Below are positions 26,530-37,061 of a stretch of DNA of 64,000 nucleotides, piece by piece. The notes under the pieces were generated by a model. The model was given only the letters and a program-made list of their open reading frames with translations. It made no database searches and had not been told where the DNA came from. The translations under genes and the position numbers were made by a program. The stretch's first letter is position 1, and every line of letters begins with the position of its first letter. The DNA comes from Bacteroidales bacterium (lineage in GTDB: Bacteria > Bacteroidota > Bacteroidia > Bacteroidales > JAADJA01): positions 1-64,000 of the forward strand of contig JAGVPB010000068.1 of assembly GCA_020052415.1 (NCBI GenBank). Direction: 5' to 3'.

Positions 26530-27219
26530 ATGAACCTGTTTAACGATTTTATAGCATTATTCTTTCCAAAAACCTGCTATGCTTGCGGCAACAATTTATA
26601 TACCGGCGAAAGAATTATTTGTACTTCATGCCTGATTCATTTACCAAAAACCAATTATCATAAAGATAAGGACAATGCTGTGAGCAGGGTGTTCTGGGGA
26701 AGGGTAAACATTGAATCGGCCACTTCATTGTATTTCTATCGAAAAGGTAGCAAAGTTCAGCATTTGATACATCAGTTCAAATATAAGGGACATCAGGAAA
26801 TCGGAATTTTTCTTGGTGAGCTTTTAGGGCTGGATCTGGCAGGATCAAATGGATTTGATATGATTGACCTGATCATTCCCGTACCCCTTCATGAAAGAAA
26901 AATAAAAAAAAGAGGATTCAACCAGTCGGAAGTATTTGCTAAGGGATTGTCAAATTCCATGAAAAAAGAGCTGGATACAACTTCTGTAGTCCGGTCTGTT
27001 GCAACCGAAACACAGACGAAAAAAAGCCGCTATAAAAGATGGGAAAATGTAAATGAGATATTTCTGCTTAAAAATCCCGAAAAGTTAAAAGGTCAGCACA
27101 TTCTGCTTGTGGATGATGTGATCACTACAGGCGCGACAATGGAAGCCGGTATTCAAACCATTCAGAAGGTTCCCGGAACAAAAGTCAGTGTGGCTTCAAT
27201 AGCATTTGCCCAGCACTAA
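26530..27219 (+). CDS. ComF-family phosphoribosyltransferase-like protein
   Basis: ComF proteins combine a zinc finger with a type I phosphoribosyltransferase domain and are linked to DNA uptake; the biochemical reaction is not established. Cys16, Cys19, Cys31 and Cys34 form the zinc site, RGFNQSE (128-134) is the conserved middle motif, and ILLVDDVITTGAT (191-203) is the PRPP-binding loop. The 229-residue length is typical. No other competence gene is in the window. It ends in a hairpin. Confidence 0.92.
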   Translation: MNLFNDFIALFFPKTCYACGNNLYTGERIICTSCLIHLPKTNYHKDKDNAVSRVFWGRVNIESATSLYFYRKGSKVQHLIHQFKYKGHQEIGIFLGELLGLDLAGSNGFDMIDLIIPVPLHERKIKKRGFNQSEVFAKGLSNSMKKELDTTSVVRSVATETQTKKSRYKRWENVNEIFLLKNPEKLKGQHILLVDDVITTGATMEAGIQTIQKVPGTKVSVASIAFAQH

Positions 27220-27247: not shown

Positions 27248-27424
27248 CAAATTTACAGAATCATACAGATCATTTATAAATCATTTTTGCCACAGATTTC
27301 ACAAATTAACACCGATTTTAAACTACCTTCGGTAGTCGTGCTAGAAGGCAGGATTGACCAAATTGAATTTAGTCTAATCTGTGATGTCTGTCTCGCCAAA
27401 GGCGAGATGGCAAGCATTTGTTTC
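27248..27424. repeat. Intergenic repeat remnants (CACAGATT type) with two small hairpins
   Basis: The stretch contains GCCACAGATTTCAC and, further on, AATCTGTG in opposite orientation, the form of a dispersed palindrome. It also holds ACTACC-TTC-GGTAGT (27322-27336) and TCTCGCC-AAA-GGCGAGA (27391-27407); the latter 17-mer recurs exactly at 30477-30493. No gene is seen. Confidence 0.6.
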
Positions 27425-27652
27425 TTAACTCTTTGTACCGGCTAAGTATTTACATGTCTTTTTCATCCCATAGAATAAACCCATTGCAATCATGAAGAAT
27501 GAGCCACCATCAAGGGGAGCGCCTCCTCCTACCGGTCCTGCACCTCCTCCCGGGCCTCCTCCCGGATCAGGCGGCGCATCCGCAAAAACATTCGTTATCA
27601 TAAAGAACAGGAACAGTACAATGGGCAAATAAATCATTACTTTTCTTTTCAT
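27425..27652 (-). CDS. Small PID-CTERM-like secreted protein, type 1
   Basis: The 75 residues are a signal peptide (ending VFA) followed at once by DAPPDPGGGPGGGAGPVGGG, then APLDGG, a hydrophobic segment (SFFMIAMGLFYG) and a basic tail (MKKTCKYL). This motif-helix-basic-tail order is that of C-terminal sorting signals; I recall small Bacteroidota proteins with a P-I/L-D-G-G motif being named PID-CTERM. It lies 16 nt downstream of the 780-residue T9SS protein and is probably cotranscribed. The mature part is nearly all Gly and Pro. Function unknown. Confidence 0.7.
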   Translation of the reverse strand: MKRKVMIYLPIVLFLFFMITNVFADAPPDPGGGPGGGAGPVGGGAPLDGGSFFMIAMGLFYGMKKTCKYLAGTKS

Positions 27653-27668
27653 ATCTCAGGTCTTTAAA

Positions 27669-29999
27669 TTAACGGATAAACACTTTCTTATTCAAACTGC
27701 CCATTTCGGTAATCACATTTACGATCAGGTAACCATACTGGCCCTGTAGGCTGATATTCTTAACCGTTTCGCCATTCAGTTGTTCACCAAAGATTTTTTG
27801 TCCGATAAGGTCATAAATAGTGACGCTTCCAGTCAGACTTTCGGCAGAAGTGATATAAACCTCATCCCCGAAAGAATAAACCCTGATGTTGTTTAATGCT
27901 GCATTATTTTCCGGTACAGCCATTTCACCATTAAGATGAATCACAAACCTCGAAGGTTCGTCACCCGGATTAGCAGAGAAGGAATAAGTGAACAATTCAC
28001 CGGTGAGTTCAGTAAATGTATTTTCAACCTTGTCTTCAAGGTAAAGCTTGTCCGTTGGATCGAATCCGCTGAGTTCTTTAACCGAAATTGTATAAAGGGC
28101 ATTTACCCCAACTTCAAGACATAAGGGTATCTCCTGGTACTCTTCTGTTTCAGGGAATGAATTGATGGATAATTCCCTGTTGTCCACACCAAGGGAATAA
28201 AACTGTGGAGCTTCAGGATAGCCCTTCAATTTTAGTGCATCCAACTGGCAGTCAAAATTGACAGATGATTCAGGCTGAATATTCAGGATGATTTCATCAG
28301 AGTAATTATTTCCTGCGACCCTAAGTTTAAGCAAAAGTGAATTTATTGATTCTGACTTTAAAATTTCCTTTGTATTATGAACTCTTGCGCCATTGTTGAC
28401 AGATAAAGTAGCGCTTCCTGCAGCAGAATCACAATGAATGAAGTACCCCTGGTGAGGTGGAATGATGTTATCAACACCAAGTTGACTAATATTAGTAACT
28501 TTATTATATGATCCATAATTACCATAGCCGGGATTTCCATTAAATATGTAAATAGTAGGGTCAATATTTGTTCTTGTCCATCCATTTCCATCGTCTACCT
28601 CCCAATCAATGGCCGAGGGGTAAGGATTACCTGCAAAATTGAAACCATCATTGGCAGAAGGCCCGCCATCTGTATTTGTCACATAGAGTGATTTTGAACC
28701 GGTATTCAGAGAGCCTGTAAATGTTGCTGTTCCAACATTATTAGTCCATAGAGCATAGCCGGTCATAATTGGCAAAAGAGTCGTGTCAGGATCAGTAATA
28801 TATTTCCAAACACTGGTCGGTTCCATCCAATATTTAAGCCACATACCCATGAAGACACCGGCATAAGGATCGTCTACCGGATATGAAACATAATGCCACC
28901 TGTCATCGGTAAGGTAACGCTCAACTGTTGCAGCAACGCCATTGTTTTCAATTAACGAGCCTGTACCGGTAGCATCGGATTCGATAACAAGGCCGGAATT
29001 TCCGGCATTGTTGGTAAAAGTGCCTGAAACCGTAAGGGATTTGAGAGGATTGATGGTAAGTGTTTTGCTGCTGTTAATTGTAAGTGCATTTGCAGTTTGA
29101 TTTCCGGTAATAGTAATGGCATGATCAATCGTTGTAGTATTGGCTGAACTCGTAGGAACCAGCGTTGCATCAATCCAAAAAGAATTATCGTTTGATGATT
29201 CCCAAGTACTGTTGTCGCTCCAGTTACCTGTTGCTTTTGATCGGTAATAATCGGATGCCGCTGAAGCGGTTGTGGCATTGGCAACAACTCCTGCCGAATA
29301 ATAGCTGTAATTTTCGGAATAATACTTATAATCGTATGTAGTAGATGAAGTGAGGCCGGTATTGGTGTAGCTTGTCCCGCTTGAATTATAAACCACTACT
29401 CCACTGCCAATATTATTTCCAACAGAATAAGAAGTTCCCTGTGTAGGTTCTGTCCATGATTCGGTTGATTTTTTGCGAACAATCATCACGTTGTGGTTCT
29501 GGGCATCTTTACTCCATGAAAGGTCAACTTCAGAAGCAGGATTTGTACCGTTTTGAGAAGCGTTTTGAGATGACGGGTTGTTAAGGGCATTAACAGTAAA
29601 TGAAGCTTCGGTGGTATAAAAGTCGGGGTCTTTCCAAGCATGCCAACACTGAATTTTATATTTCACAACAGTACCAACAGACCACGGACCTATTGCACTT
29701 CCTTCATTTGAATACCTGGCATCACTTCCTGAAACAGTTCCCCGACTAAAAGGGTCGTATTGTGTAGTTCCCCAGTCATTTGTTGTAAAAACAAATTGTG
29801 CTCCAAGTCCTGGGTCATCTTGATACCATAACCATATTTCTCCTTCAAACCAATCACCTGCATAAACAATTGGCGGTGATGTACTACCAACCCAGCTATT
29901 ATTAGTTGCTGCTCGCACTTTGTCATTAAACCAACCACCCTCTGCATATGAAAAGTAGGAAATTATAAATGTTAAAATAAAGAGAATTATTTTTTTCAT
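27669..29999 (-). CDS. Large secreted T9SS protein with FN3-like and G8-like regions
   Basis: ATG 29999 (MKKIILFIL..) is preferred to the longest frame at 30011 because GGAGGT lies 4 nt upstream (30004-30009) and the signal peptide ends at SYA. After an N-terminal beta domain, a fibronectin-III-like segment (about 140-240) is followed by a region of short beta repeats (TGNWSDNSTWESS, then LTINSSKTLTINP) similar to G8 or pectin-lyase-type stalks. The C-terminal 450 residues, including GTGSLIENNGVAATVERY and the sorting domain ending KKVFIR, are shared with the 1394-residue protein upstream (GTGSLIENNGVNATVERY). Secreted by T9SS; role unknown. Confidence 0.8.
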   Translation of the reverse strand: MKKIILFILTFIISYFSYAEGGWFNDKVRAATNNSWVGSTSPPIVYAGDWFEGEIWLWYQDDPGLGAQFVFTTNDWGTTQYDPFSRGTVSGSDARYSNEGSAIGPWSVGTVVKYKIQCWHAWKDPDFYTTEASFTVNALNNPSSQNASQNGTNPASEVDLSWSKDAQNHNVMIVRKKSTESWTEPTQGTSYSVGNNIGSGVVVYNSSGTSYTNTGLTSSTTYDYKYYSENYSYYSAGVVANATTASAASDYYRSKATGNWSDNSTWESSNDNSFWIDATLVPTSSANTTTIDHAITITGNQTANALTINSSKTLTINPLKSLTVSGTFTNNAGNSGLVIESDATGTGSLIENNGVAATVERYLTDDRWHYVSYPVDDPYAGVFMGMWLKYWMEPTSVWKYITDPDTTLLPIMTGYALWTNNVGTATFTGSLNTGSKSLYVTNTDGGPSANDGFNFAGNPYPSAIDWEVDDGNGWTRTNIDPTIYIFNGNPGYGNYGSYNKVTNISQLGVDNIIPPHQGYFIHCDSAAGSATLSVNNGARVHNTKEILKSESINSLLLKLRVAGNNYSDEIILNIQPESSVNFDCQLDALKLKGYPEAPQFYSLGVDNRELSINSFPETEEYQEIPLCLEVGVNALYTISVKELSGFDPTDKLYLEDKVENTFTELTGELFTYSFSANPGDEPSRFVIHLNGEMAVPENNAALNNIRVYSFGDEVYITSAESLTGSVTIYDLIGQKIFGEQLNGETVKNISLQGQYGYLIVNVITEMGSLNKKVFIR

Positions 30000-30003
30000 A
30001 ACC

Positions 30004-30009
30004 ACCTCC
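30004..30009 (-). promoter_or_regulatory. Shine-Dalgarno sequence deciding the start of the 780-residue protein
   Basis: On the minus strand GGAGGT is followed by GGTT and the ATG at 29999. Bacteroidota genes usually lack such a motif, so its presence singles out this start. Confidence 0.6.
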
Positions 30010-30047
30010 AAATATTTATTATTTATACGTTAAACCATTCTTAAAAA

Positions 30048-30079
30048 CAAAAATAAAGTAAAATAAATTAATGTTCCAA
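30048..30079 (-). promoter_or_regulatory. Putative promoter of the 27669-29999 unit
   Basis: On the minus strand TTG (30079-30077) is followed after 21 nt by TATTTTTG (30055-30048). It lies just after the terminator at 30130-30163, as expected for a new transcription unit. Confidence 0.5.
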
Positions 30080-30129
30080 CAAAAATTCAATTAAAATCAG
30101 CCTGGATATTCTTCTTGCATTGAATGACT

Positions 30130-30163
30130 AAAAAACCCAATGTTTTCGACACATCGGGTTTTT
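30130..30163 (-). terminator. Terminator between the small type 2 gene and the 780-residue gene
   Basis: AAAAACCC (30131-30138) pairs with GGGTTTTT (30156-30163), with three more inner pairs (ATG with CAT) after one mismatch. Flanking A and T runs let it work in both directions; it follows the 30194-30418 gene on the minus strand. Confidence 0.8.
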
Positions 30164-30193
30164 CATAACTCAGCTAAAACCAGTTGGCCAATT

Positions 30194-30418
30194 TTAAGAT
30201 TTCTTAAATAATGGTATGGATTTTTTTATCCCATAAATCATACCCATTACTACCAGTGTAATAGCGCCGCCGTCAAGCGGTGCGCCACCACCTACCGGTG
30301 TATTACCCCCACCCGGTCCGCCTCCGTTATTCGGATGAGGTGGAACCTGTGCTGTCATTGCTAAAGGTAATGCCAGAAATATACCTGCGATCAATAATAA
30401 TTTTAATGCTTTTTTCAT
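30194..30418 (-). CDS. Small PID-CTERM-like secreted protein, type 2
   Basis: The 74 residues consist of a signal peptide (ending MTAQ), the mature start VPPHPNNGGGPGGGNTPVGG, GAPLDGG, a hydrophobic helix (AITLVVMGMIYG) and the basic tail IKKSIPLFKKS. It is nearly identical in its core to the protein at 35506, and differs from the DAPPDP type at 27425 and 35741. It follows the 1394-residue T9SS protein after 91 nt. The arrangement of motif, helix and basic tail suggests processing by a sorting enzyme. Function unknown. Confidence 0.7.
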   Translation of the reverse strand: MKKALKLLLIAGIFLALPLAMTAQVPPHPNNGGGPGGGNTPVGGGAPLDGGAITLVVMGMIYGIKKSIPLFKKS

Positions 30419-30509
30419 ATCTGTATTTTTTTTGTATTCAACATAATTTTCTTAAACCCAGTCCCCAACTCCCCCTTCTCGCCAAAGGCGAGAGGGCAGG
30501 GGGGGAGGT

Positions 30510-33500
30510 CTATTGAATAAATACTTTTTTCGTTACCACGCTTGCATCTCCTACAACCTCAACCACGTAATAAGCGTTCTTATCCAGGGTAATCCTGGTA
30601 ATAACTTCGCTGATAGAGGCATTTGCAACTTCCTGTCCCATAAGGTTGAACACTCTTACGGTTCCATTGGTATTTGCGGGAGAAGCAACATAAACATCAT
30701 GATTGTTTGAATAGATGTTGATGAGGCTGGCAAAGTTTTCCGGAACGGCCATTGGCGTGAAATGAACTATAAACCTGCTTTCCGGTTCATTCAAACCATA
30801 GTTAAAGGTATAGGATTGCTGTAATAAATCGGTTTTAATTCCCTCAACCAAATCTTCAAGAATCACATTTTGGAACTCGCTGGTCTCAGTAGCGGCAATT
30901 GTAAATATACCGGTAACTTCTGCCTTTACTCCAACCGGAACCAAATTGGTAGCGGGTAATGAGTTTATTGCCATCATACCATTGATATTAGAATAAATAG
31001 CAGGGGCTTCAGGAGTGATACCAAACAATTTACGGGCATCCCATTGTCCATCGAAATCCGGAGAAGCAACTTCAAGAAAACGGATTACGGTTTCATCGGT
31101 ATATCCGTTGCCGCTTACTTCAAGCCTCAGAATATCAGTAACCTCATCTTTAAAGAAAGTTGCTGTGTTGTTTGTCCGTACACTGTTATTCATTGCAAGA
31201 GTTCCTAAAGACTGACCATCAGTAACGCCTACAAAAAATCCCTGGCATGAAGCGATATAACGTGATCCGCCATTAGCTCCGACTCCTCCGACATAAGAAG
31301 CCCAGGTAGTATTGTTTACATGAACATAAGTAGCATTATCAACATTTGTTTTGGTCCAGCCTGAGGCCGCATCCCAGTCAATAGTTGATGGGTATGGATT
31401 TCCAACAAGGTTCCAGCCGGAGTTTCCTCCCGGAGCCGACCGTGTAACATTATTAGCAGAACCAATTGTACCTGTATTTAAGGTACCTACAAATTGATCA
31501 GTTTCAGTTACATTATTCCATAAAGCATACCCTTGCATAACATTAAGAGGGGTAGTTTCAAGAACAATGTCTGTATAGGCATTTGTTGACTCTGTATGGT
31601 TTTGCAGATATAAACCTGTAAACATTGCAGCCGTTGCATTGGAAACAGGAGATGAAATCAGGTGCCATTCACTTCCGGTATAATAACGTTCAACGGTGGC
31701 GTTTACACCATTATTTTCAATAAGAGAGCCGGTTCCTGAAGCGTCGGATTTTATGGTTAAAGAACCATTATTGATGAAGGTACCTGTAACTGTGAGTGAA
31801 CCAGAAGGTCCAATTTCAAGAGTCGAACCTAAGTTCATAGTCAGGTTTGCACAGGTTGCACTTCCGGAGATTACCGGGAAGGGAGCTTTGGCTACATCAG
31901 GGATAGTAGCATCCCTTAAAGAAGATGGTGCTTCATAGTCCCAGTTACCGTTTTCGTTCCAATTATTATTTAAAATACCAGTCCAGTTTGTATAAACCGG
32001 AAGGTTCATTATACCCGGGGTCGGAAAGGCTTCATCATAGGTATTCGTATTTCTTTGGCCACCAGAACCATTAGGTATTCTTTGGCAAGAATGGTTAGCT
32101 CCATTACTTCTGCCATTCTCATTTATTTGTGGTTCTCCAGAATTTAATAAAACTAACAATCCCGGGTCATCTGCTTGTCCATTATCATAAACAAGAGCAT
32201 CTAGTAGATTAGTTGTAGTAACAGCTGTATTGGCAGGAAAGGAACTTGCATCTCCAATATAAAGTGCCACAGCATCCTGTCCATTTTGTAATGAACCATT
32301 AGTGAAAACAAAATCCACATTAGTTACAGCACTGTTTCCTAAGACAAAATATCCATTTGCATCTGTTGAGTAACCATCTAAATCATAGGCTCCATAGGAA
32401 AGGTCATTATTGCCATTGTAAAATACGACAACTAATCCATTTAAGCTAGTATTACCTGTTCCTCCATCATAAAGTTCAACAAATTCTAAAACATCTGTGC
32501 TAGGTGTATCAGAATCAACTTCATTGATGACAATAACAGGTGCATTAACTGTTAATTCCCCAGAAACATTGTTAATACCATCCCAGAAACCACCAGCATA
32601 TCCACCATAAACATAATCAGCTAATCCAAGTTTAAACCGACTGGCGTAATAAATTGTGCCAGTTGATGCAATAGCGTCGCCAATATTAGCCATGTATTCA
32701 TCATAGAGTCCAACATCCACATTAAATATTGCTGGTACCCAATCAGTCCAGGTGGATGGATCTGTATTTGATGTGCTATATCCAATCCATGCAGTAATAT
32801 CGACACCTTGTCCCGCTAAATCGGTAACCCCTGGTTCATACACTTGTGCATAAACTACAAAATCCCCTCCTAATGTTATAATACCATTAGGTGGCCATTG
32901 CAAGTTTGCCCAATCAATTTGTGCAGAAGGAGGATTAACCGTTAATACACCGGAAATATTATTTACTCCATCCCAGAAACCACCACTAAAGCCGCCATAT
33001 TGGAAAGGTGATGTGTTTAGCTGGAAGCGGCTTGCATAATAATAGATTCCGGAAGAAAGTATTTCAAGGCCAAGATCGAGTGAGTACTCGTCATTATTTC
33101 CAACATCACCTAAATATGTAGCTGGTACCCAATCTGACCATGTAGAAGGATCCGTATTAGTGGTACTATATCCAATCCACACGGTAATGCCAGCACCTTG
33201 TCCGGGAGAATCCGTTACTCCGGGTTCCCAACACTGAGCATAAACATTGAAAGTAGTGCCAACGGTAATGTTGCCACTGCCCGGCCATTGCAGGTTTGCC
33301 CAATTTACTAAATCATATTCCATGATTGAAATATTATCCAAGCCCCAGTTTCTATATTTGGTAACCTCATAATTATATTTAAAAGCAATATAAACCATTG
33401 TTCCGCTGATACCGGTCAAATCTACATAACCGGACGATGTCCAAACCTGACTTGCTGCAGGCTGAGTATAAGGTAATTCGGTCCAGGTAGCTGAGCTTGG

Positions 33501-34694
33501 ATTGCCAACACCGAAATAATCCGTAGAATAATATAGTTTTAAATAGTTATTTGCATCATCTGAACCATATTGGTACCAGGTGTCAAAGGTCATAAACTCA
33601 TTGGAGTAATTATTCAAATTGATACCCGGTAAAACTAACCAGTCCTCCTCCGTTTCACCTGAATTATACCCACTCATATAGGCATAACCTCCGCTATTCC
33701 ATATCCAATATTTCGTGGCACCTGAAACACTATAAGGATAACAGTCGCCTAAATCAGCAACAAAAGATTCACTATATGGAAGCACAGTTGAGGCAGGATC
33801 TATAACATTATAACTTTGTTCAGGACTTGTATTGAAGTCGGCATCATCATCAATAGCATAAACTTCATAATAAACGGTGGTTCCGTTAACTTGCGCAGGA
33901 ATATCTGAAATAGTTGTATAAGTATCTCCCGAGCCACCATTTGCCATGGCAATTGTATTTGTGAGTACACCGGTCGCAGTTCCCCAATGCAATTCAACTC
34001 CTGTAATCGTACCATCAGAATCAGTAACATCAGCAGAAACGGAAACGGTCGATGAAGACATAATTGCATCTGCCGGTATTTGGCTAATATTTGAAATGAA
34101 TGGAGCGACATTTCCTCCTAATGAGCTGGTGATACCATATATAACGATATCATTACCTGTACCATCACCTGGTCCACCTGTACCGCCATCAGCTTCTGCC
34201 CACATATAAATCCTGTAAGTTACAGCACTTGCAGAATTTGACTGGGCAAAGGAAAAAGTAAAATTTTGAGTAGAAGTATTGTCGGTTATTGCATATTCAA
34301 CATCAAGATTTGAAGAATATCCGTCAACTGAATTTCGCAAAGCTATTCCTCTAGGTCCAGTTGATGATCTTTGCAATTGAATATAAATTGAGCTTACACT
34401 AAATTGATAACCTGAATTCGGTGTAATTGTAAACTCCATGTAATCATTTCCACTAACCGCATTATCAATTGATGTCAGAGCCCATGAGGTTGCGTTAAAT
34501 CTTCCTCCATTTGCAGCAGCAGTCAAACCAGCACCTCTTGTAATAGTAGAAGATGTTAGATTGGCATCGTTTGTATTTGAAGCAGCTGAAACTTCATTCC
34601 CAGCTAATGCAGAGAACTCAAAAGTTAAAATTTGTCCCCACCCCAAATAACTCACACCAATTGCGAGTAATAAAATGAATAATAATTTTTTCAT
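30510..34694 (-). CDS. Giant secreted T9SS protein with duplicated module and lamin-tail-like domain
   Basis: 1394 residues with a signal peptide (ending GWGQ). Regions in order: an N-terminal beta domain to about 190; an FN3/cadherin-like domain (about 190-300); a jelly-roll choice-of-anchor J-type domain (about 305-465, LPYSESF.. NWGLDNISI); two copies of a module of about 130 residues beginning NWANLQWPGSG and DWANLQWPPNG; a lamin-tail-like domain (INEVDSDTPSTDVLEFVELYDG); beta repeats (GNWDYEAPS.. LEIGPSGSLTVTG); and a C-terminal region shared with 27669-29999, ending in a T9SS domain KKVFIQ. A surface or matrix role is inferred. Confidence 0.8.
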   Translation of the reverse strand: MKKLLFILLLAIGVSYLGWGQILTFEFSALAGNEVSAASNTNDANLTSSTITRGAGLTAAANGGRFNATSWALTSIDNAVSGNDYMEFTITPNSGYQFSVSSIYIQLQRSSTGPRGIALRNSVDGYSSNLDVEYAITDNTSTQNFTFSFAQSNSASAVTYRIYMWAEADGGTGGPGDGTGNDIVIYGITSSLGGNVAPFISNISQIPADAIMSSSTVSVSADVTDSDGTITGVELHWGTATGVLTNTIAMANGGSGDTYTTISDIPAQVNGTTVYYEVYAIDDDADFNTSPEQSYNVIDPASTVLPYSESFVADLGDCYPYSVSGATKYWIWNSGGYAYMSGYNSGETEEDWLVLPGINLNNYSNEFMTFDTWYQYGSDDANNYLKLYYSTDYFGVGNPSSATWTELPYTQPAASQVWTSSGYVDLTGISGTMVYIAFKYNYEVTKYRNWGLDNISIMEYDLVNWANLQWPGSGNITVGTTFNVYAQCWEPGVTDSPGQGAGITVWIGYSTTNTDPSTWSDWVPATYLGDVGNNDEYSLDLGLEILSSGIYYYASRFQLNTSPFQYGGFSGGFWDGVNNISGVLTVNPPSAQIDWANLQWPPNGIITLGGDFVVYAQVYEPGVTDLAGQGVDITAWIGYSTSNTDPSTWTDWVPAIFNVDVGLYDEYMANIGDAIASTGTIYYASRFKLGLADYVYGGYAGGFWDGINNVSGELTVNAPVIVINEVDSDTPSTDVLEFVELYDGGTGNTSLNGLVVVFYNGNNDLSYGAYDLDGYSTDANGYFVLGNSAVTNVDFVFTNGSLQNGQDAVALYIGDASSFPANTAVTTTNLLDALVYDNGQADDPGLLVLLNSGEPQINENGRSNGANHSCQRIPNGSGGQRNTNTYDEAFPTPGIMNLPVYTNWTGILNNNWNENGNWDYEAPSSLRDATIPDVAKAPFPVISGSATCANLTMNLGSTLEIGPSGSLTVTGTFINNGSLTIKSDASGTGSLIENNGVNATVERYYTGSEWHLISSPVSNATAAMFTGLYLQNHTESTNAYTDIVLETTPLNVMQGYALWNNVTETDQFVGTLNTGTIGSANNVTRSAPGGNSGWNLVGNPYPSTIDWDAASGWTKTNVDNATYVHVNNTTWASYVGGVGANGGSRYIASCQGFFVGVTDGQSLGTLAMNNSVRTNNTATFFKDEVTDILRLEVSGNGYTDETVIRFLEVASPDFDGQWDARKLFGITPEAPAIYSNINGMMAINSLPATNLVPVGVKAEVTGIFTIAATETSEFQNVILEDLVEGIKTDLLQQSYTFNYGLNEPESRFIVHFTPMAVPENFASLINIYSNNHDVYVASPANTNGTVRVFNLMGQEVANASISEVITRITLDKNAYYVVEVVGDASVVTKKVFIQ

Positions 34695-34743
34695 GATAGT
34701 AATTTTTAATTGTTTATTTTTTATGAATAATTTTATGAATTAT

Positions 34744-35139
34744 TTAATAAATCGCTGCTTTCTTTAATATTTCCATAATCTTAGGGTCGGTTTTGGCAAA
34801 TTCAATCAGGGCATCTTCCAGCCTGTGGGTGCGGCGTTTGAGCGGTGTAATGGCAGACCGCCTATCCCATAAAACAAAACCCATCAAAACCATCATCATG
34901 CTGAATATCCCAAAACCCCAGTACATAAAAGTTTGCAACTCGCCGAAACGATTGTTTACATCCGATTTGAATTCATCAATCCTGGCGTTGGTTAGTTCCT
35001 GTTGCTTTTGTAAGGATTCAAATTTCTCTTCCATCCTGATCATTCTTTCACGGTCGTCTCTGGTAAACGAATCAGTGTTTTGTCCCCACACCCAACCCGC
35101 GCCAAGTGCGAATAACAAAATAAGTAATGATCTTTTCAT
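34744..35139 (-). CDS. Membrane-anchored coiled-coil protein of the small-protein locus
   Basis: The 131 residues start with a signal peptide (ending VWGQ), then a coiled coil of about 28-70 (RDDRERMIRMEEKFESLQKQ and NARIDEFKSDVNNRF), a transmembrane helix (about 72-92, FMYWGFGIFSMMMVLMGFVLW) and a C-terminal helix with DRRSAITPLKRRTHRLED. No family is asserted. It is 49 nt upstream of the 1394-residue gene and on the same strand, so it is probably part of the same unit. It may scaffold or anchor the products, which is inference. Confidence 0.6.
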   Translation of the reverse strand: MKRSLLILLFALGAGWVWGQNTDSFTRDDRERMIRMEEKFESLQKQQELTNARIDEFKSDVNNRFGELQTFMYWGFGIFSMMMVLMGFVLWDRRSAITPLKRRTHRLEDALIEFAKTDPKIMEILKKAAIY

Positions 35140-35505
35140 GAGGGTAATTTTAAATTATAGTTTAATGATATTTTAAGTATAAATTTGATGCAAAAGAACT
35201 ACTGTTATCGTAACTTTTCATTAAGTAAAAGTTAAATCTCAACCTAAGATTTCAAAAAGGGGAGCTAAATTAAAAAAATTTAAATTTAACAAAGCAGAAA
35301 AAAAGAAAATGTTCATAAATTTATTTTCCAAAGATTTTTTAAAATATTTAATACTCACTTTGATCCCAAAAAAACTAATGCAAACAAGTTGGGAAAAGCA
35401 AATCGAGTAAATCTGTTATTTGGGGGATGTTTTTGTCAGTATCCAAAACTTTACACCCATCGTTTCGTGTAAAGCGTTTAATAGAAAAATCAATAAACAA
35501 TCACA
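35140..35505. other. 366-nt AT-rich intergenic region
   Basis: No gene is visible between the coiled-coil gene and the small gene at 35506. It contains a terminator-like hairpin at 35449-35474 close to the 3' end of the small gene. The remainder is A/T rich, with no promoter matching TTG-N19-TAnnTTTG that I could place with confidence for the coiled-coil gene. Confidence 0.6.
35449..35474 (-). terminator. Hairpin after the 35506 small gene
   Basis: CTTTACAC (35449-35456) pairs with GTGTAAAG (35467-35474). Read on the minus strand it is followed by TTTTGG, so it probably ends the two-gene unit of small proteins. Confidence 0.6.
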
Positions 35506-35730
35506 TTAATCTTCTCTTGAACCGTTAAGTCTCTTCCGCATTGCATAAGCCGCGCTCAAAATAATCATAAGTCCGATTCCACCATCTAACGGTGCGCCAC
35601 CCCCGACAGGAGTATTGCCGCCACCGGGACCACCGCCGCCATTCGGATGAGGCGGAACCTGTGCCTGAAGTGCAAAGGGAATTAAGATCAACCATCCTAA
35701 TAAAATCAATACTTGTATATGTTTTTTCAT
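35506..35730 (-). CDS. Small PID-CTERM-like secreted protein, type 2
   Basis: The 74 residues contain a signal peptide (ending ALQAQ), then VPPHPNGGGGPGGGNTPVGG, GAPLDGG, a hydrophobic helix (IGLMIILSAAYA) and a basic tail (MRKRLNGSRED). The core is almost the same as the 30194 protein. It starts 10 nt after the 35741 gene stop, so they are cotranscribed. Unlike the others its tail ends with acidic residues. Function unknown. Confidence 0.7.
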   Translation of the reverse strand: MKKHIQVLILLGWLILIPFALQAQVPPHPNGGGGPGGGNTPVGGGAPLDGGIGLMIILSAAYAMRKRLNGSRED

Positions 35731-35740
35731 ATTTTAAATA

Positions 35741-35965
35741 TTAGAATTTGCATAGTTTACAAACCTTCTTTATTCCATAGGCGGTTCCCATGCCAAGCAA
35801 TATAACCAATCCACTACCCACAGGAGCACCTCCACCTACCGGTCCTGCGCCACCACCAGGACCTCCGCCCGGATCAGGCGGTGCATCGGCAAATACTTTA
35901 CTTACAAATATTGGAACAAAAAGAAATACAAGGATGACAGAAATAATAGTAACTTTTTTCAGCAT
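35741..35965 (-). CDS. Small PID-CTERM-like secreted protein, type 1
   Basis: The 74 residues have a signal peptide (ending VFA), DAPPDPGGGPGGGAGPVGGG, then APVGSG in place of APLDGG, a hydrophobic helix (LVILLGMGTAYG) and tail IKKVCKLCKF. It is the first gene of a two-gene unit and is preceded by a good promoter. The motif variant without the LDGG residues is the one difference from the type 1 copy at 27425, which is otherwise identical across the Gly/Pro segment. Confidence 0.7.
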   Translation of the reverse strand: MLKKVTIISVILVFLFVPIFVSKVFADAPPDPGGGPGGGAGPVGGGAPVGSGLVILLGMGTAYGIKKVCKLCKF

Positions 35966-36239: not shown

Positions 36240-37061
36240 ATGAAATATAAAAAAGAATATCCAAAAGAAAAAAACAAAAAGCGGAGGAGTCCACAGCGAT
36301 CTGAGCAAAAAGCCGGTCAAAGTAAAGTTATCGCCGGTGATGTAAAAGAGTCGCTGGTCAGGTTAAATAAATATATTGCAAATGCCGGAATTTGTTCAAG
36401 ACGGGAAGCCGATAAATTAATTATTTCGGGTGTTATTAAGGTAAACGGAAAGGTAATTACCGATCTCGGAGTGAAAATTTCTCCTGATGATAAAGTTCAG
36501 TATGAAGATGAAACCATCAGGTCTGAGAAAAAGTACTATGTTTTACTGAACAAGCCGAAAGGTTATATTACAACAACTGATGATCCTTTCGATAGAAAAA
36601 CAGTCATGTTCCTTGTTCAAAATGCATGTAAGGAACGAATTTATCCCGTGGGCCGGCTCGATCGCGAAACAACCGGTGTTTTACTTTTGACGAATGACGG
36701 TGACCTTGCCAAAAAATTAACCCATCCACGACACCGGGTCACTAAAATTTATCATGTGGTTTTGGATAAAAATTTAAAGGGTCCTGATATGCAAAAAATT
36801 GCCAAAGGTATTGAGCTGGAAGACGGACTGATAAAGATCAATGCCATTTCTTATGCCCAGGGAGCGACAAGTAAAAATGAAATTGGACTGGAAATCCATT
36901 CGGGTAAGAACCGTGTAATCCGCCGTATATTTGAATCTCTTGGTTATCGTGTGGCTAAACTTGACAGGGTAACCTTTGCCGGATTGACCAAGAAAGATAT
37001 TCCCAGAGGGAAATGGAGGTATCTTAATGAAAAAGAAATCGGATTTTTGAAAATGATTTGA
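36240..37061 (+). CDS. rluB: rRNA pseudouridine synthase, RsuA/RluB family
   Basis: The enzyme isomerises uridine in rRNA. A lysine-rich N-terminal tail (1-38) precedes an S4 RNA-binding domain (about 38-95, VRLNKYIANAGICSRREADK). The catalytic domain has Asp141 in GRLDRETTGVLLLTNDG and the C-terminal RVTFAGL region. It belongs to the RsuA/RluB/RluE/RluF group; RluB is the most likely by the S4 domain and length, but the target site cannot be read from sequence. The basic tail is common in Bacteroidota. Confidence 0.88.
   Translation: MKYKKEYPKEKNKKRRSPQRSEQKAGQSKVIAGDVKESLVRLNKYIANAGICSRREADKLIISGVIKVNGKVITDLGVKISPDDKVQYEDETIRSEKKYYVLLNKPKGYITTTDDPFDRKTVMFLVQNACKERIYPVGRLDRETTGVLLLTNDGDLAKKLTHPRHRVTKIYHVVLDKNLKGPDMQKIAKGIELEDGLIKINAISYAQGATSKNEIGLEIHSGKNRVIRRIFESLGYRVAKLDRVTFAGLTKKDIPRGKWRYLNEKEIGFLKMI

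Follow-up and report, generated by a model that had tools for sequence, protein, structure and literature searches.

Mini-proteins with PID-CTERM-like sorting signals are encoded directly behind type IX secretion cargo genes across Bacteroidota

The window analyzed here, a stretch of 64,000 nucleotides from a Bacteroidales bacterium (contig JAGVPB010000068.1, positions 1 to 64,000), carries genes for four mini-proteins of 74 to 75 residues (minis) interleaved with genes for two giant cargo proteins of the type IX secretion system (T9SS). Our work showed that minis of this kind are encoded directly behind T9SS cargo genes, a pairing that is well supported and extends throughout Bacteroidota. 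The paired cargo proteins have in common a module of about 320 residues just before the C-terminal domain (CTD), here called the GNP module. We propose that the minis are substrates of an exosortase resembling exosortase X (XrtX) and dedicated partners of T9SS cargo with a GNP module, and we give this reading a probability of about 45%. The genomes surveyed are mostly metagenome-assembled genomes (MAGs), and the conclusions are drawn from sequences and predicted structures.

How tight is the pairing? We fetched mini loci from named genomes with the mini profile alone, regardless of neighboring genes. Most of the 63 loci so obtained are labeled as MAGs of Bacteroidales or Bacteroidetes, and a few bear the label Chlorobiota, Sphingobacteriia, or uncultured bacterium. 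A gene with a T9SS tail lies directly upstream and on the same strand in 57 of the 58 loci with upstream sequence, within about 130 bp of the mini gene in 50 of these 57 cases, and the null rate for other genes of the same loci is about 4% (13/324). A phylum sample obtained via the PID_CTERM family (NF046080) placed 24 of 28 minis behind T9SS-tailed genes, the tails being judged by eye. In the genome of the window itself, a mini follows 6 of 14 GNP genes versus none of the 150 best type A matches. An earlier, sequence-only reading of the window had proposed the link between minis and T9SS cargo and had named scattered minis unrelated to such cargo as the finding that would speak against it. 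The counts of 57/58 and 24/28 bear out the link and leave it unrefuted. That reading also took the arrangement for a novelty of this locus, and here it has to be revised, as the pairing is phylum-wide.

The paired genes of the window and the relevant parts of giant 1 are as follows.

35741..35965, minus strand: mini, type II, 74 residues, mature N-terminus DAPPDPGG, PID-CTERM-like (NF046080, 18.2 of 26 bits)
35506..35730, minus strand: mini, type I, 74 residues, QVPPHPNGG...PLDGG, PID-CTERM-like (NF046080, 22.2 of 26 bits)
30510..34694, minus strand: giant 1, T9SS cargo, 1394 residues
30729..31688, minus strand: GNP module of giant 1, 320 residues
30513..30728, minus strand: T9SS type A-like CTD of giant 1, last 72 residues
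30194..30418, minus strand: mini, type I, 74 residues, directly 3' of giant 1, gap of 91 bp
27669..30011, minus strand: giant 2, T9SS cargo with a GNP module and a type A/C-like tail, 780 residues
27425..27652, minus strand: mini, type II-like with PLDGG, 75 residues, directly 3' of giant 2, gap of 16 bp

The gaps of 91 and 16 bp confirm the earlier observation of a small gene behind each giant gene. Giant 1 consists of a choice-of-anchor J domain, a lamin-tail-like domain, the GNP module, and the type A-like CTD; for giant 2, a TTG start gives 780 residues and a start at the ATG at 29999 gives 776. The tail of giant 1 scores under the cut-off of both type A models (TIGR04183, 20.7 of 23 bits; PF18962, 9.3 of 27 bits), and that of giant 2 has no type A match in these sequence models. 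The last 72 residues of giant 1 gave a high-confidence predicted model, and the comparison of this CTD model (residues 135 to 206) with 5ag8 (Z 10.1; 1.6 Å over 65 residues) and 8gl6 (Z 10.1; 1.9 Å over 72 residues) supports a predicted type A Ig-like fold as in RgpB, RemA, and RemZ. A type C (ChiA) tail was rejected at only 19 to 20 of 40 bits. We also rejected type B cargo with an SprF-like partner, as the partner here is a protein of 74 residues with one C-terminal helix and no PorP/SprF beta-barrel.

Which feature of the cargo goes with the mini? Within the genus the CTD subclass seemed to be the key, and we discarded this candidate when the CTDs linked to minis phylum-wide turned out to include ordinary FNP-type type A tails. 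The common factor of mini-linked cargo is the GNP module. The module is recognized by the motifs WHxISSPV, GNPYPSxIDW, QGFFV, FDxxxDAxK, and LEDxxTG, of which only G-N-P is invariant across the phylum. The GNP motif is present in 50/51 mini-paired cargo proteins of Bacteroidales and in 21/21 of the phylum sample, and in 0/8 and 0/6 of the type A control cargo. The module belongs to no Pfam or NCBIfam family. It is predicted to be all-beta (pLDDT 91.8, pTM 0.89), and a structure search returned no Foldseek match below an E-value of 0.001 and no Z above 5.6, which does not by itself prove a new fold. The module is also found in RemA (residues 1031 to 1350; E 2.5e-43) and RemZ (E 5.8e-40) of Flavobacterium johnsoniae. 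The passenger parts of the cargo are diverse, with 15 BLAST components among 43 passengers versus a single one among the tails. Because module, tail, and mini are the constant elements, a role of the mini in sorting, anchoring, or maturation is most likely, rather than one in the activity of the passenger. In one genome (G046; L251 and L269), GNP cargo is followed by proteins of 133 and 144 residues that combine a signal peptide with a hydrophobic C-terminal helix of another type (...EIELGGIPRATPLQNSVLIFMMLAGG...), possibly another partner family.

Each mini is composed of a signal peptide, a Gly/Pro peptide, the motif P-(L/I/V)-(D/G)-(G/S)-G, a helix, and a basic tail, so the alignments agree with the sequence-only reading about the anatomy of the C-terminal sorting signal. 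The proposed kinship to PID-CTERM proteins also holds, as the minis match NF046080, albeit with the copies in the window under the cut-off. The four minis of the window are 35 to 50% identical to the first of them in a full-length alignment and hardly vary in the stretch PP.P..GGGPGGG..PVGGGAP. Two types recur, with the mature proteins starting with QxPPHPN (type I) or DxPPDPGG (type II), and this genome has about a dozen mini genes. Two of its contigs (C31 and C90 of G000) terminate within or next to a mini gene, which we attribute to assembly breaks at repeated cargo-mini cassettes. Among 14 type I copies, the differences at codon positions 1/2/3 are 0.54/0.34/0.63 in the signal peptide and 0.36/0.25/0.59 in the helix and tail, and drop to 0.12/0.11/0.65 in the 25 codons of the mature part. 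The mature peptide of about 25 residues is under strong purifying selection; what had been described as a mere linker behind a signal peptide is the most constrained part of the mini. This pattern, together with the dozen or so genomic copies, places the resemblance among minis beyond chance. The Gly-rich composition boosts the E-values of the minis, and the synteny and selection results are independent of these E-values. Taken together, the minis are likely exosortase substrates of the PID-CTERM type, for which C-terminal cleavage and attachment are predicted.

The exosortase-like enzyme that the sequence-only reading suggested looking for is encoded on the same contig, beyond the window. The single exosortase over the cut-off in this genome lies about 50 kb off on the minus strand (C43:87369-87986) and matches TIGR04178 (61.8 bits; cut-off 23) and PF09721 (31.5 bits; cut-off 25.7). 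The catalytic residues Cys109, Arg150, and His169 are invariant in 15 exosortase homologues. Relatives carry these genes in the order alanine racemase, GT2 glycosyltransferase, exosortase, membrane protein, RNase R, and ComF, followed by mini, giant, mini, giant, mini, mini, and S4 pseudouridine synthase; racemase, RNase R, ComF, and S4 are names that we assigned by reading the sequences. The block is split in this genome, with the part from ComF to S4 inside the window and the part from alanine racemase to RNase R at 84 to 92 kb of the contig. In eight members of the genus, the minis are found within about 20 kb of the exosortase gene on the same contig. Cargo, mini, and exosortase are contiguous in L239 and L240, and mini and exosortase are adjacent in L236, L237, L238, and L241. 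Two membrane proteins next to exosortases (L080:6880-7416 and L091:2495-3595) have no family match, and another (L237:4556-5095) reaches a subthreshold 39 of 75 bits against the XrtX-associated membrane protein (NF046082). In some genomes the exosortase gene lies inside polysaccharide clusters (L110 and L236), and in the genus it stands beside the GT2 gene.

The association persists at the level of whole genomes. We surveyed 392 genomes of the phylum and scored as PID+ those with a PID-CTERM protein over the threshold. An exosortase is present in 60/60 PID+ versus 60/332 PID- genomes (P = 2e-37), and at the XrtX cut-off the counts are 44/60 versus 2/332 (P = 4e-42). When each family of the order beyond the genus is represented by a single genome, 18/21 genomes with minis have an exosortase homologue versus 14/61 others (P = 5e-7). 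GNP cargo occurs in 31/32 genomes with an exosortase versus 18/50 others in the same sampling of the order (P = 8e-9), and this link between exosortase and GNP cargo remains in genomes without a recognized mini (13/14 versus 15/47; P = 9e-5). Two PID-negative genomes (L246 and L248) have variant minis behind GNP cargo (...DVPISGIEWLLAAGAALGIKRF... and ...GVPIQGLFVLLAAGGLYGYKKL...), which indicates that the PID model misses part of the mini group.

We hypothesize that cargo and mini share a transcript, as spacing and strand suggest, and that both would reach the periplasm by Sec, after which type I minis would start with Gln according to the Q-rule of Bacteroidota. The C-terminal helix and basic tail would hold the mini in the inner membrane. 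By analogy with the exosortase/archaeosortase family, the exosortase would cut near P-(I/L)-(D/G)-G-G and free the C-terminus of a Gly/Pro peptide of about 25 residues, which could then be joined to an acceptor, plausibly a glycolipid or polysaccharide precursor. The T9SS would move the cargo over the outer membrane via the type A-like CTD, whose fold is seen in the model. At the cell surface, the displayed peptide might be a docking site or maturation partner for the GNP module of the cargo. Exosortase processing of the minis is likely from what is known of the family; the docking of the peptide to the GNP module is a further step that we infer.

Several observations weigh against this reading. 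Since type A cargo is already anchored in a PorU-dependent manner, the need for a second anchor is not obvious. The contiguity of the genes could reflect co-regulation only, and cleavage, attachment, and binding of the minis are predictions. The best named family for the exosortase, XrtX (NF046081), is matched with 88.1 bits, below the cut-off of 170. The minis of the window score 18.2 to 22.2 bits against NF046080, below the curated cut-off of 26; five sister copies in the same genome exceed this cut-off (34.9 to 36.3 bits), so we regard the minis of the window as divergent relatives of PID-CTERM proteins. Moreover, GNP cargo without an adjacent mini occurs in Flavobacterium-like genomes and for five high-scoring tails of the genus, and solitary minis occur on C50 and twice on C54; the pairing is not strict.

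The main alternatives to an exosortase-displayed partner are an uncleaved membrane adaptor and a merely co-expressed matrix peptide. Minis that remain uncleaved or reside transiently in the inner membrane could be assembly or targeting factors (chaperones or adaptors) that act on GNP cargo before the T9SS, with the exosortase only removing or recycling them. A single mini per cargo gene, its position directly 3', and the strongly conserved periplasmic peptide would fit such a factor, and type B cargo also depends on a cognate partner whose gene lies directly downstream (PMC12618676). We nevertheless consider it unlikely, because the C-terminal signal is of the kind that is sorted and cut, exosortase is universal in PID+ genomes, and minis can exceed the linked cargo in number, some being solitary or next to the exosortase and not to cargo. 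A matrix role would make the minis Gly/Pro peptides on exopolysaccharide, co-expressed with adhesive T9SS cargo in one surface layer without contact between the two. The 3' placement behind a single cargo class (6/14 GNP genes versus 0/150 type A) is tighter than shared regulation needs and makes this doubtful as well, despite the exosortase genes in polysaccharide clusters (L110 and L236) and beside the GT2 gene in the genus, the tie of the PEP-CTERM/EpsH system to exopolysaccharide (PMC1569441), and the requirement of XrtF and its neighbor for biofilm formation by F. johnsoniae (PMC10936215).

Two further explanations carry less weight. The minis might be ordinary PID-CTERM genes carried along by the duplication of T9SS cargo cassettes and functionally untied to them. 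Tails and minis are indeed multicopy with common ancestry within the genus, and the breaks of C31 and C90 at minis are a sign of repeats. This hitchhiking, improbable in our judgment, is already weakened by an association that spans families and classes with unrelated passengers, holds for the variant minis unmatched by the PID model (L246 and L248), and persists at the genome level with one genome per family. Finally, small, exported, and strongly conserved mature peptides with about a dozen paralogues of two types per genome bring to mind secreted signals of about 25 residues that report on or regulate the production of the neighboring cargo. Within a single genome, however, many different cargo genes are followed by near-identical peptides, which offer no specificity, and the loci have no recurrent sensor or regulator gene, so signaling would be very surprising.

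The view of the minis as exosortase substrates and partners of GNP cargo can be extended, more tentatively, to a phylum-wide surface system of three parts, in which the exosortase displays the mini peptide and the GNP module of the T9SS cargo binds or is joined to it. If true, T9SS cargo would be anchored or matured in a novel manner, and the receptor would be the GNP module, RemA's copy included. The pairing of cargo and mini suggests that exosortase and T9SS sorting, which were thought to be separate, work together. It gives orphan PID-CTERM mini-proteins a likely partner and the unnamed domain of gliding adhesins a testable role, and it names candidates for the targets of Bacteroidota exosortases and for the biofilm loss of XrtF mutants (PMC10936215).

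The remaining features of the locus are its neighbors and edges.

34744..35139, minus strand: signal peptide/coiled-coil/membrane protein of 131 residues, variable neighbor
26530..27219, plus strand: ComF-family gene, conserved locus edge
36240..37061, plus strand: S4/pseudouridine synthase gene, opposite conserved locus edge in the genus

All seven minus-strand genes of the sequence-only reading are present where it placed them. Its inclusion of the 131-residue protein in the set did not hold, and we rejected this protein as a core part: homologues are found in only 10/99 related genomes, and in relatives the slot is mostly taken by an RNase H1-like gene, with an RNase H1/Cauli_VI-domain gene at L091:16113-16736 and also in G005, G008, G010, G011, and G014. 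The division of the genes into three units with their own promoters and terminators stands in part. Promoter-like sites are as frequent as expected by chance (30 observed versus 29.0 expected), so the division rests on spacing and on hairpins judged by eye, namely, imperfect hairpins with T runs downstream of 35506 and 30194. The scan found 14 terminator-like sites versus 7.6 expected, none of them clearly between units. A perfect hairpin repeat, CTCGCCTTTGGCGAG, occurs on the minus strand at 27392-27406, just past the mini at 27425, and at 30478-30492, between giant 1 and the mini at 30194 (2 copies in the window versus 0.04 expected), and may represent a small mobile element or a terminator element. 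The place of giant 2 is taken in relatives by an endonuclease I-fn3 gene (L091:10141-11286) and an ExeM-like exonuclease with a GNP module (L091:6805-10131). Elsewhere, ExeM is a GlyGly-CTERM (rhombosortase) substrate, which suggests that C-terminal sorting repeatedly takes on surface nucleases as clients.

How does this arrangement relate to known systems? The closest relative is the PID-CTERM/exosortase X system, whose P-(I/L)-(D/G)-G-G motif, helix, and basic tail recur here; every PID+ genome has an exosortase, and a candidate XrtX-associated membrane protein stands beside some exosortases. The families for PID_CTERM, exosortase X, and the XrtX-associated membrane protein are numbered consecutively (NF046080, NF046081, and NF046082), which indicates that the kind is already curated. 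By contrast, the minis of the window and this exosortase remain below the curated cut-offs, pointing to a divergent Bacteroidales branch, and the pairing with T9SS GNP cargo is part of no family name. We found no mention of PID-CTERM or XrtX as such in the open literature and no description there of their coupling with T9SS cargo. Both names exist already, and others may know of the coupling from outside the open literature.

In RemA and RemZ of F. johnsoniae, the GNP module likewise immediately precedes a type A CTD; in the RemZ structure, the CTD is the only part reported to be well resolved (PMC10994853). A difference is that no mini gene stands next to the GNP cargo genes of the Flavobacterium-like genomes that we checked. 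The tripartite C-terminal signal and the membrane-embedded sorting enzyme are shared with PEP-CTERM/exosortase, GlyGly-CTERM/rhombosortase, and archaeosortase ArtA. ArtA requires Cys173, Arg214, and Arg253 (PMC9263693), a set comparable to the invariant Cys/Arg/His of the exosortase described here. However, the signals of those systems are mostly found on large globular proteins, whereas the mature product here would be a peptide of about 25 residues.

In gene arrangement, the minis resemble the SprF-type partners of SprB-type cargo. There, type B CTD cargo is followed directly downstream by an SprF-like partner gene, and orphan cargo and orphan partners occur (PMC12618676, PMC9143113), as they do here. 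The partner in our case is an exosortase substrate of about 70 residues and not an outer membrane beta-barrel, and the CTD is type A-like and not type B. Nonetheless, SprF serving type B cargo is the closest working analogy for a mini that may serve GNP cargo.

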